This document shows, in pieces, positions 18,913-62,134 of a stretch of 64,000 nucleotides of DNA; position 1 is the stretch's first letter; every line of letters begins with the position of its first letter. The DNA is from Bradyrhizobium sp. SRS-191 (GTDB taxonomy: Bacteria; Pseudomonadota; Alphaproteobacteria; Rhizobiales; Xanthobacteraceae). The DNA lies in the NCBI RefSeq assembly GCF_024586915.1, contig NZ_JANBVS010000014.1, positions 62,001 to 126,000 of the forward strand, read 5' to 3'. The notes under the pieces were generated by a model that was given only the letters and a program-made list of their open reading frames with translations, was not told where the DNA came from and ran no database searches. The translations under genes and the position numbers were made by a program.

Positions 18913-20439
18913 TCAGCCCGGCAGGAACATCGGAAAGGTCACGCCGAGCGCCCAGGCCAGGATCAGCCCGAGACCGAGGCCTTCGGCCATCGGCGAGCAG
19001 GTCCTGCGGCCGACGCAGCCGCCGATCAGCCCGAACACGATGAAGAACAGCACGATGACCGGGATGATGATCAGCAGGAAGAACAGCCGCCTGAGGTCGA
19101 GCGCGACGGCGCCGCCGAGCGAGGCCAGGAAGACGCCGCGGATCCACAGCGTGCGCCACAGCGCGGCGTGGCCGCCCTGGTTGGCGATGCTGTCGGCCAG
19201 CATGGCGGGCACGGCGCCGACCGCGATCGCCGCAATGATCGGCAGGCGGGCCGGGATCGGCATGAAGGAGGCGACATAGCGATCGAGCGCGCCGCCAAAG
19301 ACGATGATCCCGTCAGCTGCCAGTACGACCGCTGCGAGCCAGGCCATGCGGCCGAAGCGGACGCCCTGCAGGCGCAACAGCAGGAGCGACAGCGCGCCGT
19401 AAACGAACAGATGCACCGCGAGATAGTCGGCGACCAGCACCGGCAGGAAGCGCGTGTCGACGAATCTCAGCGTGATCGGTGTGAGCACCGCCGGAGCCAG
19501 CGTGGCGATCGCCAGGGTTCGCAATGGCAGGACTGGCAACGGCGTATCGCCTTTCGGCAGCAGCTCGGCGAGCGGCCACGCCAGCAGGACAATGCCGGCG
19601 AGCAGCAGCGCAATGGCGCTGCCCGTGGCCGCTACCTCGCGGCTGCTGGTGCGGCCGAACACCTGATCGAGCCATGCGTGCGCCTCGCGCAGCGCCGTCG
19701 TCGAATACAACACGCTCACATGCTCGACGCCGGGCGCTACCACGGCGCGGCGCGCGCCTGTGGCGGCGGGATCGCCGACCGTGTCGCCCTCGTTGGCGGA
19801 GGCATCGGCGAGCTTCAGGTTACGCAGCGCGTCCCGGCGCAGCGCGCTCTCCCACTCGCCGGTGATGATCAGGAGGTTGCGCGGCGCGCTCGCGGTGACC
19901 GCTTCGGAGAACATCGAGATTGCCACCGTCGCGGCAATGCGCGCATCGGCCAGCGCCTCGCGCACGATGATGTCGGAGGCCATGGAGTGGCCGAGCAGCG
20001 CCACGCGGCCATCGGACCCGGGCAGCGACAGTGCCGCGTTGGTGACGCGGCCGAGTTCGCTCATCAGCTTGCGCGTCGTGCCGTCGATCCGCGTCACGTC
20101 GCCGGACATCGGCGTGGGATTGCGGCCATGCCCCTCGAAATCGAAGGAGACGGCGAGATAGCCCGCCTGCGCAAGCGTCAGCGCGTAGGCTTCCATGAAC
20201 TGGCGCGAGCCCGCGAACCCGTGGGCGATGACCACCACCGGCGCGGGGGGCGCGTCGCGGCGCTGATAGATCGTGATGGGGGTCGTGCCGACCTGGCCTT
20301 GCGTGATGGTGAGGCCGGCGCGCACCGCCTCGAGGCGCCAGATGCCGATGATGCCAAGCGCAAGCCCGGCCAGCGCCGCCGCCAGCAGCGCCATTGCGTG
20401 CGCGCGCATGGCAATGGATGGGCGCGGGGCGCTTGGCAT
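18913..20439 (-). CDS. alpha/beta hydrolase with C-terminal multi-pass membrane domain
   Basis: 508-aa inner-membrane protein. An N-terminal hydrophobic helix (~15-35) is followed by an alpha/beta-hydrolase domain (~40-270) with the oxyanion-loop motif VVIAHGFAGS and nucleophile motif LLGHSMAS; a late His is likely in PGVEHVSVLYS. The remaining ~230 residues contain about seven or eight hydrophobic helices. Such hydrolase-membrane fusions are annotated in Bradyrhizobium but lack a defined substrate. ATG 20439 has GGAG six bases upstream; an ATG at 20451 is also possible. The long open frame continuing upstream is a GC artefact covering another gene's DNA. Confidence 0.8.
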   Translation of the reverse strand: MPSAPRPSIAMRAHAMALLAAALAGLALGIIGIWRLEAVRAGLTITQGQVGTTPITIYQRRDAPPAPVVVIAHGFAGSRQFMEAYALTLAQAGYLAVSFDFEGHGRNPTPMSGDVTRIDGTTRKLMSELGRVTNAALSLPGSDGRVALLGHSMASDIIVREALADARIAATVAISMFSEAVTASAPRNLLIITGEWESALRRDALRNLKLADASANEGDTVGDPAATGARRAVVAPGVEHVSVLYSTTALREAHAWLDQVFGRTSSREVAATGSAIALLLAGIVLLAWPLAELLPKGDTPLPVLPLRTLAIATLAPAVLTPITLRFVDTRFLPVLVADYLAVHLFVYGALSLLLLRLQGVRFGRMAWLAAVVLAADGIIVFGGALDRYVASFMPIPARLPIIAAIAVGAVPAMLADSIANQGGHAALWRTLWIRGVFLASLGGAVALDLRRLFFLLIIIPVIVLFFIVFGLIGGCVGRRTCSPMAEGLGLGLILAWALGVTFPMFLPG

Positions 20440-50056: not shown

Positions 50057-50545
50057 ATAAGATCACGATTTCCGGAAAATAGCAAGTAGATTATTTTTAT
50101 CGGAAGTCAGTGCGGTGTCCTCCGCTGTCGTCCCCGGGCTTGACCCGGGACCCGGACTCCGCGGCGGGAGTGATAGAGCGATGTGATCGACGTCGGCGCG
50201 CAACAAGACAAGCCGGTGGCTATGGGTCCCGGGTCAAGCCCGGGACGACAGTTGTGGGCTTGGCGCCCTTCGGTGGCCATGCACACTCGCAGTCGCGCGG
50301 ACTCCTTTTCCTGATGCACCGAGATGCATATTCGTGATCATTGCATGCAACGGCCGCTCAAGAAATGAGCTGGCTTGCGGGTGCCTGATCGTTGCCCAGC
50401 AACCGGGCAGCATCACCAATCGTCTCAACCTGTTGAAGTAGTTCGTTCTTCTCCAAGGCCGTTGCGCCTCGTCCTATTGTACACAATGGCACACCGCTTG
50501 CTTCGTCTTCTGCGAGGCATTCTCGCGAGGAGGCAAGCGGCTGGC

Positions 50546-51232
50546 ATGGCGAACTCATCTGCAGCGGCAAGCGCCACGATCACAGCCGAGCCGGAGCCGA
50601 TCACGCTCGACCTGTCGAAGACCGCGCTCGTCATCATCGACATGCAGCGCGACTTCATGGAGCCCGGCGGCTTCGGCGAGACGCTGGGCAATGACGTGTC
50701 GCAACTGGCCCGTGCCGTGCAGCCGATCGCCAACGTGCTGGCGGCGGCGCGCAAGACCGGCATGCTCGTCATCCATACGCGCGAGGGCCACGAGCCGGAT
50801 CTCTCCGACGCGCCGCCGGCCAAGGTCGAACGCGGCGCTCCCTCTCTCCGCATCGGCGATCCCGGACCGATGGGGCGCATCCTCATTCGCGGCGAGGCCG
50901 GGCACGACATCATTCCCGCGCTCTATCCCACCGACGGCGAGGTCGTCATCGACAAGCCGGGCAAGGGTGCGTTCTACGCCACCGAGATGGGCGACGTGCT
51001 GAAGCATCACGGCGTCGAGAACCTGCTGGTGTGCGGCGTCACCACCGAGGTCTGCGTCAACACCACCGTGCGCGAGGCCAATGACCGCGGCTATCGCTGC
51101 GTCGTCATCTCCGATGGCTGCGCGTCCTACTTCCCGGAATTCCACGAGATGGGCCTGAAGATGATCAAGGCCCAGGGCGGCATCTTCGGCTGGGTCGCGG
51201 ACTCCTCCGCGGTGCTGAAGGCCATGGTCTGA
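50546..51232 (+). CDS. isochorismatase-family cysteine hydrolase
   Basis: 228-aa hydrolase. The triad is Asp in [14 protein letters not shown], Lys in [13 protein letters not shown] and Cys in [18 protein letters not shown]. Members hydrolyse amides such as biuret, ureidoacrylate or carbamoylsarcosine, and the cis-peptide VTTE is usual. The sequence is closest in style to biuret/ureidoacrylate hydrolases, but this is not proven. ATG 50546 is used with AGGAGG 12 bases upstream; an ATG at 50486 would add a basic N-terminus. A nucleobase-type permease gene follows 72 bp later. Confidence 0.85.
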
Positions 51233-51304: not shown

Positions 51305-52948
51305 ATGAGCGGAAGCGGGACGACAAGCTCGGTCAAGGCGGATTTCAAGCCGGTGCTCTGGACACCGGGCGATTGGAACGCGTTTTTCGGTTTCGGCACC
51401 AACATCCTCGTCAACATGCTCGTTCTCACCGGGCTGTTGCGCTTCGTCCTGAAGATGCCGGACAGCCTGGTGTTCGGCCGCATCCTGCCGGCGCTCGGCC
51501 TCATGATGTGCCTGTCGACCCTCTACTACGCGTGGCTCGCTTATCGGCTGGCGCAGAAGACCGGGCGGACCGACGTCTGTGCGCTGCCCTCCGGCGTTAG
51601 CGTGCCGCACATGTTCATCGTCACCTTCGTGATCATGCTGCCGATCACCTTGAAAACCGGCGATCCCCTGAAGGGCTGGTCGGCCGGCCTGGTCTGGGTG
51701 TTCTTCCAGAGCTTCATCCTGATGATCGGCGGCTTCGTCGCGCCGTTCATCCGCAAGATCACGCCGCGCGCGGCGCTGCTTGGCACGCTCGCCGGCGTCT
51801 CCGTCACCTTCATCTCGATGCGCCCGGCATTGGAGATGTACATGACGCCGCAGATCGGCCTCGTCTGCTTCGCGATCATTCTCGTCAGCTGGTTCGGCGG
51901 CGTGAAATATCCGAAGGGCCTGCCGGCGGGCCTCGTGGCGATCGCCGTCGGCATGATCATCGCCTGGGGCTCGAACCTGTTCGGCCTCGGCCTCGGCGGG
52001 CTCAGCGTCAAGGGCGTCGGCGATGCCTTCGCGAGCTTCGGCTTCTCGGTGCCGCTGCCGGCGTTCGGCACTGTCTTCTCCGGCTTCGAATATCTGGGGA
52101 TCATCCTGGTGACCGCGATCCCGTTCGGCATCTATGACCTAGTCGAGGCCATGGACAATGTCGAGAGCGCGGAAGCGGCGGGCGACGAATATCCGACCAC
52201 GCGCGTGTTGACCGCCGACGGCATCGTCAGCCTGATCGGCTGCATGATGGGCAACCCGTTCATCAACGCTGTCTATATCGGCCATCCCGGCTGGAAGGCG
52301 ATGGGCGGCCGCATCGGCTATTCGGCGGCCACCGGACTGATGGTGATCGTGCTGTCCTGGCTCGGCATCATCTCGGTGCTGCTGGCGCTGGTGCCGGTCG
52401 TCGCGATCTCGCCGATCCTGCTCTATATCGGCATGCTGATCGGCGCGCAGGCGTTCCAGACCACGCCGGTGAAACATGCGCCGGCGATCGTGCTCGCCTT
52501 CACGCCGCATCTTGCCGCCTGGGCCAAGCTGCAGATCGACACCATGCTGGCGTCCACGGTGACCGCGGCGCAGGCGGTCGGCGGCCTCGCGGCCGACAAG
52601 GTCGATGCGGTCAAGACCGCGGCAATCGCGGCGCTGCCGCAGCAGGGGGTGCTGTATCACGGCCTCGAGGTGATGGGCGGCGGCTCGATCCTCGCCGGCC
52701 TCGTGCTCGGCGCGATCGGCGTGTTCGTGATCGAGCGCGACTTCACCAAGGCGGCAGCGTTCGCGCTCGCGGGCGCGGTCATGACGTTCTTCGGCTTCAT
52801 GCACGGCGAGGCCGTCGGCATCGGCGTGACCCCGGCGGTGGCGCTGGCCTATGTCGTGGTCGCGGGCGGACTCTTTGCTCTGGGACGGCTCGGCATGTCC
52901 GAGAGCTACGTGCCGCATGCCGACATGCAAGCGGCGCCGGCGGAGTAG
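51305..52948 (+). CDS. NCS2-type (nucleobase/ascorbate) permease
   Basis: 547-aa inner-membrane transporter with 12 to 14 hydrophobic segments. The start (FFGFGTNILVNMLVLTGLLR) and the NCS2-like core (ALPSGVSVPHMFIVTFV; SRITADG-like TRVLTADGIVSLIGCMMGNPF; NAVYIGHPGWKAMGGRIGYS) resemble AzgA/xanthine-type carriers. An extra hydrophilic Ala-rich insertion (~415-450) precedes the last helices. With the neighbouring amidohydrolase it suggests uptake and breakdown of a nitrogen-rich heterocycle; the substrate is unknown. Confidence 0.8.
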   Translation: MSGSGTTSSVKADFKPVLWTPGDWNAFFGFGTNILVNMLVLTGLLRFVLKMPDSLVFGRILPALGLMMCLSTLYYAWLAYRLAQKTGRTDVCALPSGVSVPHMFIVTFVIMLPITLKTGDPLKGWSAGLVWVFFQSFILMIGGFVAPFIRKITPRAALLGTLAGVSVTFISMRPALEMYMTPQIGLVCFAIILVSWFGGVKYPKGLPAGLVAIAVGMIIAWGSNLFGLGLGGLSVKGVGDAFASFGFSVPLPAFGTVFSGFEYLGIILVTAIPFGIYDLVEAMDNVESAEAAGDEYPTTRVLTADGIVSLIGCMMGNPFINAVYIGHPGWKAMGGRIGYSAATGLMVIVLSWLGIISVLLALVPVVAISPILLYIGMLIGAQAFQTTPVKHAPAIVLAFTPHLAAWAKLQIDTMLASTVTAAQAVGGLAADKVDAVKTAAIAALPQQGVLYHGLEVMGGGSILAGLVLGAIGVFVIERDFTKAAAFALAGAVMTFFGFMHGEAVGIGVTPAVALAYVVVAGGLFALGRLGMSESYVPHADMQAAPAE

Positions 52949-53371: not shown

Positions 53372-53983
53372 TCATCCCGGCGGCTGATCGAGATAGTAGC
53401 GCAGCAGGTCCTGGCCGGGCTCCGACAGCCACTCGGCCGCGCCGGTGACATAACCCTCGATCAAGCCGCTGGTCCCGATCAGATAGGTGATCGGCATCGC
53501 CGGGGTGGCGAAGATCGAGGCCTCGGTGTTGGCCGGATTGGTCGCCTGTGCATGCGGATCGGCGAAGGAGGAGCGGGGCATCGCGATCGCTTCCGCATAG
53601 CGGCGGATCGTCTTGATGTCGCGCCGATCGGTGCAGATTGTCCAGACATCGAGCGCCGGCATCCGCGCGCGCTCCAGCGCGGCCAGCGTCGGCAGGTCGA
53701 TCTTGCAGGCCGCGCACCATGTGGCCCAGAGATTGACCAGCGTGACATGGCCGGGCTTGGGCGCGAGCATCACGTCCTTGCCGCTCATGTCCTGCAGCTT
53801 GAGCGGCGGCAGCGGGTTGCGCGGCCGTTCGACGATGAACTGGCTGCGGCCGCTGCGGAACATCGGCGGCCGCGGATCATCAGCCGCGGCACGGACACGC
53901 GGCGTCGATATGAGTAGGGTGGTCGCAGCTCCGAGCAGTGCTGCACGGCGCGTGAGCGCGCAGGAGGACACGGACTCAGCCAT
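53372..53983 (-). CDS. periplasmic TlpA-like thioredoxin-fold protein
   Basis: 203-aa thiol-disulfide protein. A Tat-like signal (LTRRAALLGAATTLLISTPRVRA, quoted as TRRAALLGAATTLLI) is followed by a TlpA/ResA-type domain with the redox motif WATWCAACK and the cis-Pro segment ATPAMPITYLIG. Such proteins reduce periplasmic disulfides; in sulfur-oxidation clusters the equivalent (SoxW/SoxS) keeps SoxY reduced. It overlaps the dsrE-like gene by 8 bp and lies near the sox operon, which makes that role plausible. Confidence 0.85.
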   Translation of the reverse strand: MAESVSSCALTRRAALLGAATTLLISTPRVRAAADDPRPPMFRSGRSQFIVERPRNPLPPLKLQDMSGKDVMLAPKPGHVTLVNLWATWCAACKIDLPTLAALERARMPALDVWTICTDRRDIKTIRRYAEAIAMPRSSFADPHAQATNPANTEASIFATPAMPITYLIGTSGLIEGYVTGAAEWLSEPGQDLLRYYLDQPPG

Positions 53984-54440
53984 GGATGTAGGACCAGCCC
54001 TTGCGCTGCAGCTCGACGACACGGCCGATGCCGAACGGCACCAGCTTCGCGCCGTCGATCAGCTGGATGGTCAGGTTCTCCTTGCTCTCGGCAATCGCCT
54101 TCGACGAGGCGCACATGCTGAAGCCGATATGCGGATACATCTGGCGCAGCGTGGCGATCGGCTCCTTCAACGGCGACTTGTCGTCGCGAAGCACATCTAT
54201 GCCGCTGCCATTGGCGACGACCTCGATGATGGGCGTCTGTCCGAGACTGGCGAAATGCCGCGTCAGATTACCCGAATAGCTGATGGCGTGGCCCATCACG
54301 TGCGGATCGTTGCGGTCGATCAGGATGACGATGCCGGCGTGATGCTGGGCGACGGCCGGCACGGCGGGGGCTGGAGCGCCGAGGGCCGTCGCGCCAGCCA
54401 GGAAGCCGCGGCGCGACAGGTCTTGAACAGGTTCGCTCAT
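53976..54440 (-). CDS. exported DsrE/DsrF-like protein
   Basis: 154-aa protein with a Tat-type signal (DLSRRGFLAGATALGAPAPA) and a DsrE-like fold (IVILIDRNDPHVMGHAISYSG; IGFSMCASSKAIAESKENL). DsrE-family proteins carry sulfur as a persulfide on a Cys; the Cys in GFSMCASS is the likely site. Export to the periplasm is unusual for DsrE, which is normally cytosolic. It lies between the doxX-like and tlpA-like genes. Confidence 0.82.
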   Translation of the reverse strand: MSEPVQDLSRRGFLAGATALGAPAPAVPAVAQHHAGIVILIDRNDPHVMGHAISYSGNLTRHFASLGQTPIIEVVANGSGIDVLRDDKSPLKEPIATLRQMYPHIGFSMCASSKAIAESKENLTIQLIDGAKLVPFGIGRVVELQRKGWSYIHG

Positions 54441-54504: not shown

Positions 54505-54936
54505 TCAGCCGCGCGGCGCGATCGGCGCCTTGCCGTTGCGGCCCCACAGCACGAACAGCGACAGCGCGAGCAGCACGATGTTGAGCGGCGTCACGGCGCC
54601 TTCGCCGCGGGAGAGATGGAAGACGAGGGCGAACACCTGGAGCGTAGCGCAGCCAAGAGCGGCCAGCACGGTCAGGCGCGGCATGATGCGGGTCAGTGAC
54701 GGCAAGAGGATGCCGATGCCGCCGGCGAGATCGATCAGGCCGATGGTCCGGACGAACCCGACCGAATATTCGCCGGCCCAGGGCATCATCTGCGCCAGCT
54801 CCGGGATCGGCGTGAACGTCTTCATCACGCCGGAGAAGGTGAACAGGGCAAACACCAGGACCTGGGCGGTCCACAGGCCGATGCGCAGCGCCAGAGAGGG
54901 TTGCAGCGGAAGGTCGTTGGTCGTCGTCGCGGACAT
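54505..54936 (-). CDS. DoxX-family membrane protein
   Basis: 143-aa protein with four transmembrane helices (LRIGLWTAQVLVFALFTFSG; FVRTIGLIDLAGGIGILLP; LTVLAALGCATLQVFALVFH; LNIVLLALSLFVLWG), matching DoxX-like proteins. DoxX/DoxD relatives include thiosulfate:quinone oxidoreductase subunits, and others act in redox stress. GGAGACCCCTG precedes the ATG. It is divergent from the LysR gene and leads the dsrE-tlpA set. Confidence 0.8.
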   Translation of the reverse strand: MSATTTNDLPLQPSLALRIGLWTAQVLVFALFTFSGVMKTFTPIPELAQMMPWAGEYSVGFVRTIGLIDLAGGIGILLPSLTRIMPRLTVLAALGCATLQVFALVFHLSRGEGAVTPLNIVLLALSLFVLWGRNGKAPIAPRG

Positions 54937-55015: not shown

Positions 55016-55034
55016 CATTTCCTCTGGGTTGATA

Positions 55035-55994
55035 ATGGATACGCTGGTCAGTATTCGGGTATTCTGCCAGGTCGCCGAGCTCAAGAGCTTCGCGGCAGCG
55101 GCCGATCGCTTGAGCCTATCGCCGGCGATGGCCTCCAAGCATGTCATGCAGCTGGAGCAGCGGCTGTCGACCCGGCTGCTCAACCGCACCAGCCGGCGGG
55201 TCGGCCTGACGGAGGCGGGACAGGTCTATTTCGACCAGGTGCGTCCGATGCTCGATCAGCTCGACGAGGCCGAGGCCGTCGTCAGCAAGGCCACGGTGAT
55301 TCCGCGCGGCACCTTGAAGGTGAGCGCGCCGGTGTGGTTCGCGAATCCGCTGTTCGCCGGCACACTCGCCGCCTATCGCGCGCGCTACCCGGACGTGGTG
55401 ATCGATCTCGATCTCAGCGGTCGGCTGGTGAATTTGGTCGAGGAGGGGTTCGATCTCGCGTTGCGCGTGTCGGCGACGCCCGGCGACGGGCTGATCGCGC
55501 GGCCGCTGGCCCCGGTGCTGATGCAGCTCGTGGCGTCGCCGACTTATCTCGCCACGGCAGGGCGGCCGAAGGCGGTCACCGATCTCAACGGCCATGCGAT
55601 GCTGAAGTATGCGCTGTATCCGCTGCGGACGATCACAGTGCCCGCCCCGGAGGGCGAGGTGGCGCTGACCTTCAAGGATGTGCTGATCAGTGGCAACGAG
55701 ACCCTGCTGCATCACGCCGCCGTCGCCGGCATGGGCATGGCCGTGCTGCCGCGCTGGCTGATGGCCGACGACCTCGCCGCGGGCCGGCTCGAGCCGGTGC
55801 TGCCGGAGCTGCTGACGATCAAGGCGCCGCTGATGGCGGTCTATCCCAGCCGCAAATATCTCTCGGCCAAGGTCCGCACCTTTATCGACTTCATCGCCGC
55901 CGATCCGCTGATGAAGCAGGCGTCGGACGGACCCGCGGCTGCGATCGATCCGGTCGCGGCGCAGGCGAGGAAGGGGCGGAAGAGGGGGGCGTGA
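55035..55994 (+). CDS. LysR-family regulator next to the sulfur genes
   Basis: 319-aa LTTR of the CrgA/AaeR-like subgroup (MDTLVSIRVFCQVAELKSFAAAADRL; then SLSPAMASKHVMQLEQRL and TSRRVGLTEAGQVYFDQV). It is divergent from doxX-dsrE-tlpA and convergent with soxA. It probably controls the doxX set. A TTG at 55029 is also in frame; ATG 55035 gives the usual family start. The Arg/Lys/Gly-rich tail is unremarkable. Confidence 0.88.
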   Translation: MDTLVSIRVFCQVAELKSFAAAADRLSLSPAMASKHVMQLEQRLSTRLLNRTSRRVGLTEAGQVYFDQVRPMLDQLDEAEAVVSKATVIPRGTLKVSAPVWFANPLFAGTLAAYRARYPDVVIDLDLSGRLVNLVEEGFDLALRVSATPGDGLIARPLAPVLMQLVASPTYLATAGRPKAVTDLNGHAMLKYALYPLRTITVPAPEGEVALTFKDVLISGNETLLHHAAVAGMGMAVLPRWLMADDLAAGRLEPVLPELLTIKAPLMAVYPSRKYLSAKVRTFIDFIAADPLMKQASDGPAAAIDPVAAQARKGRKRGA

Positions 55995-56132: not shown

Positions 56133-56909
56133 TCAAGGCCGCACGGCCGGTGCGTCCATCGTCATGCCGTGCGCGCGCGACATCAGATACAGCTCGAGCG
56201 AGATCATGTCGGGCGCGTCGAAGTCCAAGGCTTGCGCGCGGACGCCTGTCATGCAGCCGCGCAGGCGCCGCTGCAGCGAGCCCATGCCCTGCCATTCCAG
56301 GCGGTAGATCGGATAGCCCGTCGGCTGCGCTTGCGTGATCGCCGAGCCGGCGAGATGCTTGTCCCAATTGTCGTCGTGGCAATTGGCGCAGGCGAGATTG
56401 AGCTGGCCCTGGCGTTGGACAAACAGCTCGCGGCCGCGCGCGACCGCTGAGGCGAGGCGCGGATCGTCGCCGGCCGTGATGGGCATCCCGCGCGACTGCT
56501 TCGCGATCACAGCGGTCAGCGCCAGCAACTCGCGGCTCTCCGGCGCGAACGGATCGGCCTGCTGATGCTGCCTGCGGCAGAGATTGACGCGCTGGCCGAG
56601 ATCGACCGGCGCGCCGCTTGCCGCGTTGAAAGCGGGATAGCGCGCGGCGACGCCCTTCATGCTGGCGTCGGCGGCACCGTGGCAATCGCCGCAGGACTTG
56701 TTGGCGGCGCCGGCTTTCGTGCTCCACAGCGTCTCGCCATCGAGCACCGACAGCATCGCCGGATTGGCGGTGTCGTCGTCCTGCATCGCCTTGGTGTCCG
56801 ATGACAGGAAGTCGTAGCCGGAGCGGCGCGCGGATACGGCGATCTCGCCGGCGAGCACGGGCAGGGCGGCGCCGAGCAGGACCATAACGGCAAGCAGTGC
56901 GCGCGGCAT
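56133..56909 (-). CDS. soxA: sulfur-oxidation diheme cytochrome SoxA
   Basis: 258-aa periplasmic protein with a signal peptide ending near VLA-GE. Two haem c motifs, CGDCH and CANCH, mark the diheme form. RRLRGCMTGVRAQ contains the active-site Cys that ligates haem and forms the cysteine persulfide in SoxAX. SoxAX joins thiosulfate (or another sulfane donor) to the Cys of SoxY. ATG 56909 overlaps the soxZ stop (TGATG). In ordinary clusters soxB follows; here the operon ends. Confidence 0.93.
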   Translation of the reverse strand: MPRALLAVMVLLGAALPVLAGEIAVSARRSGYDFLSSDTKAMQDDDTANPAMLSVLDGETLWSTKAGAANKSCGDCHGAADASMKGVAARYPAFNAASGAPVDLGQRVNLCRRQHQQADPFAPESRELLALTAVIAKQSRGMPITAGDDPRLASAVARGRELFVQRQGQLNLACANCHDDNWDKHLAGSAITQAQPTGYPIYRLEWQGMGSLQRRLRGCMTGVRAQALDFDAPDMISLELYLMSRAHGMTMDAPAVRP

Positions 56910-57229
56910 CAGTCGACCGTGATCACAGCCGACGCATTGGCGACGAAGCCGTTGTCGCCGATCCATTCGAACTCGAAGCGGCCGCTCTCGCTCGCCGTGG
57001 TGAAGAACGACAGGAATGGGTTGGCGGCGATGGCCGGATAAAGATCGGCGCGGAAGATCTCGGCGCCGTTGAACCTGCAGGTGAAGCTGGTGATGATGTC
57101 GCGCGGGATCGCATCGCCCGCGGCGGTGTGGCGATAGCCCGGCTCCATCACGTGGCTCATCAAGGTCTTGATCTCGATGATCGCGCCGCGCTTGGCTTTG
57201 GCGGGGACGTTGACGAGGGCGGCGGGCAT
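56909..57229 (-). CDS. soxZ: sulfur carrier complex subunit SoxZ
   Basis: 106-aa protein that pairs with SoxY. Family features are PAKAKRGAIIEIKTLMSHVME, GDAIPRDIITSFTCRFNG and the end FEFEWIGDNGFVANASAVITVD. It has no signal, as is usual, and is exported with SoxY. It overlaps soxY and soxA by one base each (TGATG), indicating coupled translation. Confidence 0.95.
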   Translation of the reverse strand: MPAALVNVPAKAKRGAIIEIKTLMSHVMEPGYRHTAAGDAIPRDIITSFTCRFNGAEIFRADLYPAIAANPFLSFFTTASESGRFEFEWIGDNGFVANASAVITVD

Positions 57230-57717
57230 CACGGCATCTCCTCGGTGCAGGCGGCGAGGGTGACGATGACGTCGACGGTCGCCGACCAGAATGAGCCGTC
57301 GGAGAGCTTTGCGATGGCCACCACTTTCTGGGTGTCTGCGAGCCGGATGCGCGTCGTGACCTGGGCGCGGCCGGCGCTCGGCGTGAGGAAAAAGTTCGCG
57401 ACGTTGGGCTGCGGGTTCTTCTCGTTGAAGACGTGGATGCTCTTGACGAAATTGTCGGGCGTCATCGGATGATCGACGCTGACCGTCATCGGCACGGTGT
57501 TGCCGTTCTCGACGAGTGGCGGAATGTCGAGCCGGACCTTGCCGGTTTGCACATGCGCCTCGCCGACGAGATTGCGGATCGCAGAGGCGAGCATTGCCGG
57601 GGTGGCTTGCGCCGGCCTCACGGTGACGAGCGGCAGGGCGCTCGTTGCGGCGACGGTTCCTGCCAGCTGCAGCAGGTGGCGGCGCGAGAGGTGGAGCGGG
57701 TCGAACATGCTGCTCAT
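57229..57717 (-). CDS. soxY: sulfur carrier SoxY with unusual C-terminus
   Basis: 162-aa sulfur carrier. A Tat signal (LSRRHLLQLAGTVAATSA) leads to an immunoglobulin-like domain. The canonical carrier arm is GGCGG at the very end; here the end is VTLAACTEEMP, so the carrier Cys (residue 157) is retained but its flexible glycines are replaced and five residues follow. The arm may be less mobile or suited to other enzymes. ATG 57717 lies 6 bp after the soxX stop; ATG 57708 is an alternative. Confidence 0.93.
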   Translation of the reverse strand: MSSMFDPLHLSRRHLLQLAGTVAATSALPLVTVRPAQATPAMLASAIRNLVGEAHVQTGKVRLDIPPLVENGNTVPMTVSVDHPMTPDNFVKSIHVFNEKNPQPNVANFFLTPSAGRAQVTTRIRLADTQKVVAIAKLSDGSFWSATVDVIVTLAACTEEMP

Positions 57718-57723
57718 ATGGGC

Positions 57724-58170
57724 TCACTCGCGAAGGGTCGCGAGATAGGCGACGATATCTTCGATCTGCTCGGCCGACAGGATCGGCTTGTCGCGCCAGG
57801 CGGAACCGACGCGGGTCAGGCCGTCGAGGCGATAATAGGACGGCATGATCGTCGCCGGATTGACGCTGGAGGCATCGACCAGCCGCAGCCGCAGTTGCGC
57901 GGTCGTGGAGCGGCTGCCGGCGCCGGCCAGGCTCGGGGCGAGATCGCCCTGGAAGCGCGCTTCAGGAAACGGGCCGGAGTGACAGAGGATGCAGGTCGAG
58001 CTTCGCGCGAGCACCAACGCGCGGCCGCGCGTCGCATCGCCGGGCCGGCCGGTCAGCGATTGCGCGATGCCGTCGCCGGAGATCGTGTACGGCTTCAGCC
58101 CCTCGGCGAAGATGGCCGCGGGCAGGGCGGTGATGATCATGGCGATCACCCGGCTAGCCGAACGCATCAT
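57724..58170 (-). CDS. soxX: sulfur-oxidation monoheme cytochrome SoxX
   Basis: 148-aa periplasmic cytochrome with a signal peptide ending near FA-EG (~residue 22). One haem motif CILCH and the distal Met in the NPATIMPSYY segment are typical of SoxX. It pairs with SoxA. Its start overlaps the soxF stop by 17 bp; ATG 58170 or 58167 may be used. Confidence 0.93.
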   Translation of the reverse strand: MMRSASRVIAMIITALPAAIFAEGLKPYTISGDGIAQSLTGRPGDATRGRALVLARSSTCILCHSGPFPEARFQGDLAPSLAGAGSRSTTAQLRLRLVDASSVNPATIMPSYYRLDGLTRVGSAWRDKPILSAEQIEDIVAYLATLRE

Positions 58171-59437
58171 GGGTCAGCGCCTTGAACCAGGCCGTCGCAG
58201 CATCCGCCTCGGCCGCGCGCGTGGTGCGCGGCGCGTCGACCGGGCTTGCCTTGCCGCCCTCCGCTTCGGCGAACAGATCTCCCTTGGGCTGATAGACGCC
58301 CGACAGCGAGAACGCGTAGTCCGGCGCGACGAGGCTGTAGCAGATGCCGGTCAGCAGCGGTGGCGGCTCGATCCGCCGTGCGATCAGGTCGCGCGCGATC
58401 ACGGCCGCACAGGCTCGTCCTTGCGCCTGCGCCGCGCCGGCCGATTTCGGAATGCCGCCGCCGAGACAGGCGTCGCCGATGATATGGACATCCGGCACGA
58501 GCTTCGAGGCGAACGTCGCTGCGTCGATCGGGCACCAGCCGGTGCGATCGACGGTGCCGGCCAGCGCGGCGATGCGGCCGGCCTTCTGCGGCGGGATGAT
58601 GTTGGCGACATCCGGAGTGTAGTTGCCGAATTCGGTGACCACCGTGCGCGTGGCGGCGTCGACGCCGGTGACGCGGCCGCCCTGTGACAGCGGGATGCGC
58701 TCGATCATGCCGGGGTAGAGCTGCTGCCACGCCTGCTCGAACAGCTTCTGTTGCGAGAAGCTATCCTTGGCGTCGAGGATCAGCACCTTCGACTTCGGCT
58801 TCCGCGCTTTCAGATAATGCGCGATCAGGCTGGCGCGCTCGTAAGGTGCCGGGGGACAGCGCGACGGATTGGCAGGCACCGCGATCGCCACCGTGCCGCC
58901 GTCCGGCATCGCCTCTATCTGCTTGCGCAGCAGCAGGGTCTGCTCGCCGGCCTTGTAGGCGTGCGGCATGACGGCGGACGCTGCTTCGTCGTAGCCTTGC
59001 AGCGCCGTGAAATCGAGATCGATGCCCGGCGCGAGCACGAGCCGGTCATAGTCCAGCGTGGTGCCGTCGGCGAGCTTGACCTTGTGCCCGGCCGCATCGA
59101 TTGCGGTGGCCGCCTGCAGCATCACGCGCACGCCGTCTGCAGCGATCCTGTCGTAGCCGAACTGCTGCGCGCCGATGTCGCGCAAGCCGGCGATGACCTC
59201 GTTGCTTTGGGGGCAGGAGGTGAATGTCTTGCTCGACTCGACCAGCACGACGTCGAACCTCTCATCGGACTTGCACAGCGCGCGGGCGCAACTGGTGCCG
59301 GCAAAGCCGCCGCCGATCACGACGACGAACGCGCCCATCTTCGCCCGCAGCACGGCGGGCGCGCCCATCATCGCAACGCCCGCCGCGATCAGGCCGCCGA
59401 CCTCTCTGCGCGTGCGCCGTCGGGATGTTGTCATCAT
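58154..59437 (-). CDS. soxF: flavocytochrome c sulfide dehydrogenase-type flavoprotein SoxF
   Basis: 427-aa periplasmic FAD protein. A Tat-like signal (RRRTRREVGGLIAAG) precedes FAD motif VVVIGGGFAGTSCARAL. The two redox Cys are in TSCPQSNEVI-like FTSCPQSNEV and in GWCPIDAATF; another Cys lies in SRCPPAPYER. FCSD oxidises sulfide to a Cys-bound sulfur and passes electrons to a cytochrome; no separate fccA cytochrome gene is here, so SoxX or another c-type cytochrome may accept them. It follows the molybdenum hydroxylase gene by 52 bp in the same direction. Confidence 0.92.
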   Translation of the reverse strand: MMTTSRRRTRREVGGLIAAGVAMMGAPAVLRAKMGAFVVVIGGGFAGTSCARALCKSDERFDVVLVESSKTFTSCPQSNEVIAGLRDIGAQQFGYDRIAADGVRVMLQAATAIDAAGHKVKLADGTTLDYDRLVLAPGIDLDFTALQGYDEAASAVMPHAYKAGEQTLLLRKQIEAMPDGGTVAIAVPANPSRCPPAPYERASLIAHYLKARKPKSKVLILDAKDSFSQQKLFEQAWQQLYPGMIERIPLSQGGRVTGVDAATRTVVTEFGNYTPDVANIIPPQKAGRIAALAGTVDRTGWCPIDAATFASKLVPDVHIIGDACLGGGIPKSAGAAQAQGRACAAVIARDLIARRIEPPPLLTGICYSLVAPDYAFSLSGVYQPKGDLFAEAEGGKASPVDAPRTTRAAEADAATAWFKALTHDAFG

Positions 59438-59489
59438 GTCGAACCGACGTGATGGCGGCCCTTGCTGCGAACGGCCGCCGCCGCGCCTC

Positions 59490-61673
59490 TCATGCGAAGG
59501 TGATGTTCTGGTCGCGCAGCGGCACCGAGCGGATGCGTTTGCCGGTGGCGGCGAAGAACGCGTTCAGCACGGCCGGAGCGGCGACGCCGATGGTCGGCTC
59601 GCCGACGCCACCCCAGAAGCCGCCGCTCGGGATCATGATCGATTCCACCTTCGGCATCTCGGCGATACGCATCGAGTTGTAGCTGTCGAAATTGGTCTCA
59701 ACGATGCGCCCGTCCTTCACCGTGCAGCCGCCATAGAACAGCGCCGACAGCCCGTAGACGAACGAGCCCGCGATCTGCCGCTCGACCTGCGCCGGGTTGA
59801 CGACATAGCCCGGATCGGTCGAGGCGACGATGCGGTGAACCTTGATCTTGGTGCCGTCGATCACCGAGATTTCGGCGGCGCCCGCGACGTAGCTGCCATA
59901 GCCGTGCAGCTGCGCCAGCCCGCGGTAGACACCTTCCGGCGCCGGAGTGCCCCAGCCGATCTTCTCGGCCACCGCGTTGAGCACCGCGAGATGCTTCGGG
60001 TTCTTCGCCATCAGCTTGCGGCGGAACTCGAGAGGATCTTGCCCTACGGCGTTGGCGAGCTCATCCATGAAGCATTCAAGATAGATCGCGTTCTGGTTCA
60101 CGTTGACGCCGCGCCAGAAGCCCGGATTGATATGCGGGTTGCGCATCGAATGCTCGATCAGCAAATTCGGCACGGAGTAGCCGATCGTCGCCTCGCCCGA
60201 GGGCGCCAGCCCCTGGAAGGTCGCGGGGTCCTTGCCGTTGACGAGCGCATCGGGCCTCAGGCTGAACAGGATCGACTGGCCGGAGATGCGCATGTGCAGC
60301 GCGGTCAGGTTGTTGTCGGCGTCGAAGCCGCCGGTCAGCTTGCACTGCGTGATCGGGTGATAGCGGCCATGCGTCATGTCCTCCTCGCGCGACCATAGCA
60401 GCTTGATAGGCGTGCCCGGCATCGCCTTGGCGACCTGCACGGCCTGGCGGACGTAATCGGTCTGGCCGCGCCGGCCGAAGCCGCCGCCGAGGATCAGCTT
60501 GTGCACCTCGCATTTGTCGGCCGGCAGGCCCGACGCCTCCAGCACCGCGGCGAATGCGGCCTCGCCATTCTGCGTGCCGCACCACACCTCGCAGCGATCG
60601 GGCGTGTAGAGCGCGGTCGCGTTCATCGGCTCCATCGTGGCGTGGTTCTGATAGGGATAGTTGTAGACGGCCTCGATCTTCTTCACCGCGCTCGCCAGAG
60701 CGGCCTTCGCGTCGCCGTTCTCGTTGCCGACGAAGGCGGGACCGGAGTCCAGGCCTTCCGCCAGCCATTTGCCGATCGACTCCGAGGAGACTTTTGCGTT
60801 CGGGCCTTCGTCCCACACGATCGGCAGCGCATCGAGCGCGGTCTTGGCGTGCCACCAGGTGTCGGCGACCACGGCGACCGCGGTGCCGTCGACCGCGATC
60901 ACCTTCTTGACGCCCTTCATGCCGGCGATCTTGGCCTCGTCGAAACTCTTCAGCTTGCCGCCGGTGACCGGGCAATCCTTGATCGCGGCGTTGAGCATGT
61001 TCGGCAGCTTGATGTCGGCGCCGTAGATCATTGCGCCCGTGACCTTGTCGGCGGTGTCGAGGCGCTTCACGCCCTTGCCGATCAGGGTCCAGTCCTTGGG
61101 ATCCTTCAGCTTGACGTCGGCCGGCGGCGAAAGCTTTGCCGCCGCTTCGGCGACTTTGCCGTAGGTCGTGGTCTTGCCCGAGGCCTTGTGCGTGATGACG
61201 CTGTTGGCGGCCGTGCATTCGGCCACCGGCACCTTCCACTCGTCGGCCGCGGCCTGGATCAGCATCATGCGCGCGGCGGCGCCGCCCTTGCGGACGTAGT
61301 CCTGCGACGAGCGGATGCCGCGGCTGCCGCCGGTGGAGAAATCACCCCACACGCGCTTGCGCGCGACGTTCTGGCCGGGCGTCGGATATTCGGTCGTGAC
61401 CTTGCTCCAGTCGCAGGCGAGCTCTTCCGCGACGAGCTGGGCGAGACCGGTCAGCGAGCCCTGGCCCATCTCGGAACGGGCGATGCGGATCACCACGGTG
61501 TCGTCGGGCCGGATCACGACCCAGGCGTTGACCTCGGGCGAGCCGTCGGCGGCGCGCACCACCTGCGGCCCGCCGAAGGGAATGTCGAGCCCGAGCGCGA
61601 GGCCGCCGCCGAGCGCGGCGGTGCCGATGACGAAGGAGCGGCGGTTGAGACGCGGCGTCACATGCTGGTTCAT
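59490..61673 (-). CDS. exported molybdenum hydroxylase large subunit (isoquinoline 1-oxidoreductase beta/xanthine oxidase family)
   Basis: 727-aa molybdopterin-binding subunit. A Tat signal (LNRRSFVIGTAALGGGLALG) shows periplasmic location. Moco motifs GGGFGRRGQTDYVRQAV and the GVGEP segment with the catalytic Glu (FWGGVGEPTIGVAAPAVLNA) are present, with the family's usual size. Substrates of the family are aromatic heterocycles or aldehydes; here it is unknown. AAAGGAGGCCGGC precedes the ATG. It is followed by soxF with only a 52-bp gap, so it is likely cotranscribed with sox genes. Confidence 0.9.
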   Translation of the reverse strand: MNQHVTPRLNRRSFVIGTAALGGGLALGLDIPFGGPQVVRAADGSPEVNAWVVIRPDDTVVIRIARSEMGQGSLTGLAQLVAEELACDWSKVTTEYPTPGQNVARKRVWGDFSTGGSRGIRSSQDYVRKGGAAARMMLIQAAADEWKVPVAECTAANSVITHKASGKTTTYGKVAEAAAKLSPPADVKLKDPKDWTLIGKGVKRLDTADKVTGAMIYGADIKLPNMLNAAIKDCPVTGGKLKSFDEAKIAGMKGVKKVIAVDGTAVAVVADTWWHAKTALDALPIVWDEGPNAKVSSESIGKWLAEGLDSGPAFVGNENGDAKAALASAVKKIEAVYNYPYQNHATMEPMNATALYTPDRCEVWCGTQNGEAAFAAVLEASGLPADKCEVHKLILGGGFGRRGQTDYVRQAVQVAKAMPGTPIKLLWSREEDMTHGRYHPITQCKLTGGFDADNNLTALHMRISGQSILFSLRPDALVNGKDPATFQGLAPSGEATIGYSVPNLLIEHSMRNPHINPGFWRGVNVNQNAIYLECFMDELANAVGQDPLEFRRKLMAKNPKHLAVLNAVAEKIGWGTPAPEGVYRGLAQLHGYGSYVAGAAEISVIDGTKIKVHRIVASTDPGYVVNPAQVERQIAGSFVYGLSALFYGGCTVKDGRIVETNFDSYNSMRIAEMPKVESIMIPSGGFWGGVGEPTIGVAAPAVLNAFFAATGKRIRSVPLRDQNITFA

Positions 61674-61684
61674 GCCGGCCTCCT

Positions 61685-62134
61685 TTAGGCGTTCGCCGCG
61701 GCGTGGATCGCCTCGCGCACCTGCGCGAAGGTTCCACAGCGGCAGATGTTGGTGATGGCGTCGTTGATGTCCTGATCGCTCGGCTTCGGATTGTCCTTGA
61801 GCAGCGCGGCGACGGCCATGATCATGCCGCTCTGGCAATAGCCGCATTGCGGAACGTCGTTCTCGAGCCAGGCCTGCTGCACCTTGTGCAGGCCATTGTC
61901 GCTGCCGAGCCCTTCGATGGTCGTGATCTGCTTGCCGACCGCCTCCGAGACCGTCACGCCGCAGGAGCGCACGGCGGTGCCGTCGAGATGCACCGTGCAG
62001 GCGCCGCATTGTGCGATGCCGCAGCCATATTTGGTGCCGGTCAGTCCGGCGTTCTCGCGGATCGCCCACAGCAGCGGCGTGTCCGGCTCGACGTCGAGAG
62101 TATAGGATTTTCCATTAATCGTGAGGTTTGCCAT
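61685..62134 (-). CDS. [2Fe-2S] small subunit of the molybdenum hydroxylase
   Basis: 149-aa iron-sulfur subunit with both clusters' ligands: plant-type [12 protein letters not shown] with the later SC, and the C-terminal CGYCQSGM and CRCGT. It transfers electrons from the molybdenum site. There is no signal peptide, so it should be exported bound to the Tat-tagged large subunit. AAGGGATCTGCG precedes the ATG. It is the first gene of the ior-sox run; the large subunit starts 11 bp after its stop. Confidence 0.93.

Follow-up and report, generated by a model that had tools for sequence, protein, structure and literature searches.

In the consensus model of the Sox system, as outlined in PMC5336275, SoxAX conjugates thiosulfate to the carrier SoxYZ, SoxB removes the sulfonate group, and SoxCD oxidizes the sulfane; the same text states that direct demonstration is lacking for all of these steps. 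Canonical systems of the Paracoccus type are encoded by soxXYZABCD, and truncated systems contain SoxB but no SoxCD. Here we describe a cluster of seven genes, iorA-iorB-soxF-soxX-soxY-soxZ-soxA, on the minus strand of a 64,000-nucleotide stretch of the Bradyrhizobium sp. SRS-191 genome (contig NZ_JANBVS010000014.1, positions 62,001 to 126,000; hereafter the window), running from position 62134 down to 56133 of the window. The name IorAB is used for the architecture of a molybdenum hydroxylase only, and not for isoquinoline as the substrate. Judged from its gene content and conservation, the cluster is real and represents a variant Sox carrier system that is widely distributed.

Comparison of the cluster with canonical Sox shows that it has the same SoxX, SoxY, SoxZ and SoxA families in the same order, including the haem and Cys-ligand region of SoxA, but contains neither SoxB nor SoxCD, carries a SoxY arm that ends in AAC plus a tail instead of GGCGG, and has IorAB in addition. 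The absence of SoxB also separates it from truncated Sox. The SoxF protein resembles the flavoprotein of flavocytochrome c sulfide dehydrogenase (FCSD), with FCSD domains above the cut-off. The window SoxY scores above the curated cut-off of the NCBIfam model TIGR04487 ("SoxY-related AACIE arm protein"), which is a model of the protein only. The variant arm is already known to curators through this model; the link to IorAB, the cluster context and the occurrence in genomes lacking SoxB come from the present analysis. No IorAB-Sox cluster was named in the open literature among the matches listed.

Two further systems invite comparison. Like the membrane-bound aldehyde dehydrogenase of Gluconobacter oxydans (8gy3) and IorAB-type molybdenum hydroxylases, the window enzyme has the large-subunit fold, shared along most of the protein, and an adjoining gene for a [2Fe-2S] subunit, but its large subunit is ~26% identical to 8gy3_C, and the cytochromes encoded next to it are SoxX and SoxA, joined in some loci by a small cytochrome c. 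The fused SoxYZ-S2/S4 carriers associated with pyrroloquinoline quinone (PQQ) alcohol and methanol dehydrogenases (TIGR04557; PMC11237559) likewise tie a divergent SoxY carrier to a periplasmic oxidoreductase. In the window, by contrast, SoxY and SoxZ are separate proteins, SoxXA is present, and the enzyme is a molybdenum hydroxylase. The window SoxY and SoxZ scored 63.6 and 27.5 bits against TIGR04557 (cut-off 140).

The layout reported in the first-pass annotation of this DNA, seven genes on one strand with gaps of at most 52 bp and several overlaps, was confirmed by the coordinates and by Pfam and NCBIfam matches (Table 1). The spacing is 11 bp between iorA and iorB (with iorB starting from the ATG at 61673), 52 bp between iorB and soxF, and 6 bp between soxX and soxY; soxF and soxX overlap by 17 bp, and soxY and soxZ by 1 bp.

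The order iorAB-soxFXYZA, whose conservation that annotation had proposed to check, is conserved across genomes. A scan for relatives of the window SoxY, with one genome per species, was evaluated for the best 80 of 298, nearly all from Bradyrhizobium. IorB was found at the expected position in 76 of these 80 loci, and in the other 4 the contig stops before that position. TIGR04487 matched above the cut-off in 17 of 297 genomes drawn at the order level and in 15 of 398 drawn at the phylum level. Examination of the loci around strong and weaker TIGR04487 matches revealed the arrangement iorA-iorB-(soxF)-soxX-soxY-soxZ-soxA (hereafter the module) in 37 genomes from 13 genera and 10 families, in two of which the contig stops short of iorA; one family (f109) belongs to another class than the rest. 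The other weak matches were SoxB-type or other clusters. The module is also present on plasmid records of Neorhizobium galegae, Methylobacterium sp. NMS14P and Roseomonas marmotae, and Bradyrhizobium BTAi1 is one of the strains that have it. Because the order is conserved across genomes, the cluster is not a chance arrangement, and a merely local one is excluded by its recurrence in relatives, genera and families. On the evidence of gene order, IorAB-soxFXYZA is a separate, conserved system.

Residue conservation was examined in 116 module loci, comprising the 76 from the best-80 set and 40 others; near-duplicates between the collections were kept, and the window itself was excluded. Gene models were built with tblastn and a GC-based picker of open reading frames (ORFs). 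L204 was removed from the set, its IorB match being at 25% and on the opposite strand. Both cysteine motifs were present in 110/110 module IorA, and GEP in 115/116 module IorB, the exception being L045, whose iorB is split. (In L045 and L211 iorB is in two pieces, a possible frameshift or sequencing error.) CXXCH was present in all 116 module SoxX, and two CXXCH motifs in 111/116 SoxA; the strict SoxA Cys motif, whose cysteine acts as a haem ligand, was matched in 102/116. Among the SoxF proteins, CPP[AG]P[YF]ER was found in 99/99 and C[PYW].SN in 95/99, and a trial pattern for a third cysteine matched 21/99. Since SoxF was not found in 17/116 loci, and in L151 and L213 its gene comes after soxA, we consider iorAB-soxXYZA to be the core and SoxF an accessory. 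The conserved composition is IorAB, SoxX, SoxY with an AAC arm, SoxZ and SoxA, mostly with SoxF, and sometimes with a small cytochrome c, the gene for which lies between iorB and soxF or adjoins soxF in some loci (7/30 clustered loci).

The SoxY arm distinguishes the module from SoxB-type clusters. Against the model for true SoxY, the window protein scored 116 bits, short of the required 125. The arm of module SoxYs consists of [AGSP]AC followed by 2–5 residues in 115/116 loci, the remaining one (L165) being VTMAAC, and a GGCGG C-terminus was found in 0/116. As controls we used the 21 SoxB-type clusters that happened to be among the fetched stretches (8.5 to 19.5 kb): all 21 had a SoxY ending in GGCGG, and none had IorAB within the fetched stretch. 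A further 11 SoxY loci, L203 among them, had neither the module nor SoxB. Another arm type, GGCLT, was observed in L191, L192, L204, L209 and L210, next to SoxF and SoxZ and without SoxB. Some distant module SoxYs scored below the TIGR04487 cut-off of 172 bits (e.g., 164.8 bits in G220 and 170.6 bits in G583). Two plasmid homologs are publicly annotated as SoxY-related AACIE arm protein. A search for viral copies of the window-type SoxY returned 2 pattern matches, neither a relative.

The first-pass annotation had also suggested a Sox route operating without SoxB and SoxCD, and had named a full soxB-soxCD set expressed elsewhere, together with no cotranscription of iorAB and soxF, as grounds for rejecting its reading. 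A search of the source genome (7.6 Mb in 96 contigs, 99% complete) showed that such a set is encoded elsewhere. The genome contains four SoxZ, two SoxB above the cut-off (contigs C2 and C15) and two SoxC above the cut-off (both on C2), arranged as soxX-Y-Z-A-B-C-D on C2 and soxX-Y-Z-A-B on C15, most names being assigned by position and tblastn. An organism devoid of soxB and soxCD is excluded by these two sets, and, because full sets are present elsewhere in the genome, the missing soxB and soxCD are a trait of the cluster and not of the organism. On contig C30, one ORF (L090, G000:C30:18000-37900) gave SoxY and SoxZ matches together, ~5 kb from a PQQ dehydrogenase, and is adjoined by a protein with a metallo-beta-lactamase fold.

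What stands of that suggestion comes from other genomes. SoxB was found in 0/116 module loci. Genome-wide, SoxB was above the cut-off in 27/37 module genomes and in none of the other 10, three of which (G583, G488 and G065) are single-contig genomes. SoxC was likewise above the cut-off in 0/10 of these SoxB-less genomes; G000 and G471, searched alongside, were positive. Sub-cut-off SoxB or SoxC matches occurred in some of the 10, and control genomes without Sox gave such matches too. Because neither protein is above the cut-off in 10 of the 37 module genomes, the module can exist without SoxB and SoxC. In Bradyrhizobium diazoefficiens, which has two soxY genes, soxY1 is reported to be essential for thiosulfate oxidation and soxY2 is not (PMC5748708). 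The soxY2 gene may be the counterpart of the window soxY, in which case that report would agree with a SoxB-independent carrier.

IorB has the features of a xanthine-oxidase-family enzyme, with MoCoBD domains, a [2Fe-2S] subunit and a GxGEP motif, the Glu of which is an active-site residue in this family. The nearest solved structure by sequence was 8gy3_C, an aldehyde dehydrogenase large subunit (E 7.2e-75, ~26% identity). An AlphaFold model of IorB (mean pLDDT 77.6; 21 sequences) also gave 8gy3 as the best structural match (Foldseek, VIA-align 2; Z 42.5, rmsd 3.2, 656 aligned), with aldehyde oxidases and further enzymes of this family ranking next; no sulfane-oxidizing enzyme was among the Foldseek/VIA-align matches listed. 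The twin-arginine motif NRRSFVIG suggests that IorB is exported by the twin-arginine translocation (Tat) pathway. In L156 (family f61), soxA is followed by XdhC-MobA, MoaA, a ThiS-family protein, MoaE and MoaC, and the other three f61 loci (L157, L171 and L172) also have relatives of MoaA, MoaC and the MobA-like protein; in L145 (G285), XdhC and a MobA-like protein follow the module. According to PMC2997495, XdhC chaperones are usually needed for the maturation of xanthine-oxidase-family enzymes. These predicted maturation and cofactor-synthesis neighbors support a working molybdenum hydroxylase, and say nothing about its substrate.

In a phylogenetic tree, 32 module IorBs and 16 paralogs (drawn from 125 module-like IorBs and 17 paralogs) fell on separate sides of one branch with a support of 100, and the five paralogs compared have other residues at many positions that are invariant in the module clade. 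IorB matches of at least 58% identity, counted by hand over both draws, occurred in 44 genomes, of which 38 had the complete module; other matches were at 46% or below, except two at 52–54% and extra copies in G257, G638, G274 and G553. Second IorAB copies free of sox genes were observed in two genomes that also contain the module (L287 in G553 and L289 in G638).

We hypothesized that the module, which we call Ior-Sox, is a variant Sox carrier system that stands alone and works independently of SoxB, in which IorAB oxidizes a small periplasmic organosulfur compound or aldehyde while SoxXA and SoxYZ carry the sulfur; this is a tentative reading, to which we give somewhat less than an even chance. 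IorAB, with its Tat-type signal and its similarity to aldehyde dehydrogenases, would oxidize the carbon of a small free substrate in the periplasm, the likeliest candidates being an organosulfur compound and an aldehyde that accompanies one. SoxXA would then attach the sulfur group, be it a thiol, a sulfide or something comparable, to the cysteine in the SoxY arm by oxidative coupling, and SoxF and cytochrome c may accept electrons and aid release from the carrier. The altered arm would keep the carrier off SoxB, so that no cycle from thiosulfate to sulfate would run; because the cluster has no SoxB and its arm is different, the carrier presumably serves a different cycle. In its general form, this would amount to a second Sox-type pathway, with members across Alphaproteobacteria and in one or more lineages outside that class. 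Its carrier would be loaded by SoxXA, do without SoxB and have an arm code of its own, and its partner would be a dedicated molybdenum hydroxylase that oxidizes a small organosulfur compound or sulfur-bound aldehyde in the periplasm. That broader proposal is slightly more doubtful again.

Several observations weigh against a stand-alone, SoxB-independent carrier. The 27 module genomes with SoxB, together with the full Sox sets in the window genome, mean that crosstalk is possible there. The AAC arm is imperfectly tied to IorAB, because L203 (G235:C1:3243000-3258500) has an AAC-like arm, VTLAACRSE, with SoxF and SoxZ only and no IorAB. The SoxY tree (with 5 loci from the best-80 set among its rows; ten near-duplicate module rows and L090 dropped; last 9 residues removed) was poorly resolved, and did not recover the module SoxYs as one clade. 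Clustering of the neighboring genes revealed no conserved module neighbor that points to an organosulfur substrate.

The remaining contrary evidence comes from IorAB itself. Among the 44 genomes with close IorB matches, at least five (G188, G168, G238, G257 and G559) have an IorAB of the module clade without the module; the search scored only the best 3 candidates per genome in one draw and the best 2 in the other, so the solo counts are minimum values. One further genome, G418 (L286, G418:C1:2348000-2364000; a single contig), has iorA-iorB-soxX-soxA without any SoxY, the haem motifs and cysteine region of its SoxX and SoxA being intact. Neither SoxY nor SoxA was found in G188. Where the five solo genomes do have SoxYs, these either terminate in GGCGG or are part of long ORFs resembling SoxYZ fusions (for L300, the arm was read from L149). 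When solo IorBs were added to the tree (31 sox-linked, 9 solo and 5 paralog rows; L287 and the partial L291 left out), the sox-linked IorBs lost their status as a separate clade: four solo IorBs (L290, L283, L289 and L285) were basal and five (L280, L281, L282, L284 and L288) were nested among the sox-linked ones, where several forks are weak. The end branches of the nested solo IorBs are 0.43–0.81 long, compared with at most 0.44 for the sox-linked ones, and all five retain nearly all clade-marker residues, including the W of GGFWGGVGEP. A strict dependence of IorAB on Sox genes is excluded by the solo copies; because five genomes lack the module and G418 lacks SoxY, IorAB does not need the carrier. 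The tree and gene content suggest to us that the carrier genes were lost several times and that IorAB may then have continued with a free substrate. Such a substrate fits the solo copies better than the second suggestion of the first-pass annotation, in which SoxYZ may carry an organic sulfur or aldehyde substrate for IorAB.

This bears on what the first-pass annotation had put forward for IorAB, namely that it supplies the missing oxidation. In its explicit form, IorAB would replace SoxCD by oxidizing SoxY-bound sulfane, with thiolysis in place of SoxB, so that inorganic sulfur could be oxidized with neither SoxB nor SoxCD. A molybdenum enzyme does stand where the SoxCD function would be needed, and the module does occur in genomes with neither SoxB nor SoxC above the cut-off. 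The idea is nevertheless weakened, since IorBs of this clade that retain almost all of its marker residues occur in five genomes without an AAC-armed SoxY, and no conserved substitute for SoxB adjoins IorAB. In addition, we know of no xanthine-oxidase-family enzyme that oxidizes sulfane sulfur, and we consider this replacement improbable. An alternative with a better, though still low, likelihood puts the carrier at the service of carbon oxidation: IorAB would be a periplasmic aldehyde oxidase, and SoxXA-YZ would carry the aldehyde on its cysteine or remove thiols that would poison the molybdenum center. The nearest structures of IorB, which are aldehyde dehydrogenases and oxidases, favor it, as do the solo IorAB copies and the position of the SoxYZ-bearing ORF of the window genome near a PQQ dehydrogenase; a carbon role has also been proposed for the fused SoxYZ that accompanies alcohol and methanol dehydrogenases (PMC11237559). 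The SoxYZ fusion in L090 has no SoxX or SoxA match nearby, whereas module loci retain SoxXA, and the cysteine motif of SoxXA is kept in most of them, as would suit sulfur conjugation.

A functional link between the two halves may also be absent, IorAB and SoxFXYZA having unrelated jobs and being merely co-regulated. IorAB has been found apart from sox several times, and conserved operons may hold seemingly unrelated genes (PMC11237559). Against this, the gene order is kept in 13 genera and two classes, the arm change tracks the IorAB linkage with the exception of L203, and the nested solo IorBs have the longer end branches; we rate unrelated jobs as a shade less probable than the replacement of SoxCD. 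Finally, the module could be an auxiliary arm of canonical Sox, with a SoxB encoded elsewhere acting in trans on its carrier. SoxB is above the cut-off in 27 of the 37 module genomes, and also in the window genome, but the 10 genomes with neither SoxB nor SoxC above the cut-off and the lack of a GGCGG end in every module SoxY make this very unlikely.

The distinction matters for how sox genes are interpreted. They are often read as markers of thiosulfate oxidation, and a common SoxXYZA cluster that occurs where SoxB and SoxCD are absent could wrongly be counted among them. In a large SoxY phylogeny, every sequence lacking a GGC motif was removed (PMC11237559), and because its arm has no GGC, a SoxY of the window type fails that filter. 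The gene content of the cluster points to a possible uncharacterized branch of sulfur or organosulfur metabolism in many bacteria; if the reading of a stand-alone, SoxB-independent carrier is correct, Bradyrhizobium and many other bacteria harbor an uncharacterized periplasmic oxidation linking carbon and sulfur.

Table 1. Genes of the cluster and flanking genes, with positions in the window.
Gene or product	Position	Strand	Evidence
iorA, [2Fe-2S] small subunit of xanthine-oxidase-family hydroxylase, 149 aa	61685..62134	-	Fer2 and Fer2_2 above cut-off
iorB, molybdenum-cofactor large subunit with twin-arginine signal, 727 aa	59490..61673	-	MoCoBD_1/2; NRRSFVIG and GGVGEP read in sequence
soxF, FCSD-type flavoprotein, accessory	58154..59437	-	FCSD_central 160 bits; FCSD-flav_bind 72 bits
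soxX, mono-haem cytochrome c	57724..58170	-	TIGR04485 74 bits (cut-off 61)
soxY, variant arm ...VTLAACTEEMP	57229..57717	-	TIGR04487 246 bits (cut-off 172)
soxZ	56909..57229	-	PF08770 89 bits; TIGR04490 79.5 bits (cut-off 76)
soxA, di-haem cytochrome, Cys-ligand region RRLRGCMTGVRA	56133..56966	-	TIGR04484 229 bits (cut-off 110)
LysR-type regulator, flanking	55029..55994	+	LysR_substrate and HTH_1
DoxX-like membrane protein, possible accessory in the window's clade	54505..54936	-	DoxX_2 85.8 bits
DsrE-like protein, possible accessory in the window's clade	53976..54440	-	DsrE 21.7 bits (just below cut-off 22.7)
TlpA-type thioredoxin (WCAAC), possible accessory in the window's clade	53372..54022	-	AhpC-TSA 30.5 bits; TlpA model 72.7 bits (below cut-off 230)

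The window SoxA could be aligned to the solved SoxA structures 1h31 and 2c1d. Its translation suggests that the true soxA start is probably not at 56966 but at the ATG at 56909, ahead of a signal-peptide-like stretch. A purine-rich stretch lies immediately 5' of the iorA ATG, and a promoter and terminator scan gave counts close to those of shuffled sequence.

The LysR gene lies 138 bp past soxA on the strand opposite to the cluster. Apart from the window itself, a LysR gene next to the module was seen in its closest relatives (L008-L012) alone, with no match at the other module loci compared. The whole LysR-DoxX-DsrE-TlpA set is present in L008, L009, L010 and L012, the contig edge of L011 falling within LysR, and was undetected in the remaining module loci of the same comparison. 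Further along in the window, genes for a 547-aa permease-like protein (51305-52948; no Pfam match) and an isochorismatase-domain protein (50375-51232) are also found in many other Bradyrhizobium loci, again on the downstream side of the module. On the Methylobacterium plasmid (L212), two glutathione S-transferase genes lie around the module, and mddA, encoding methanethiol S-methyltransferase, lies ~8 kb past it (19416-20150).

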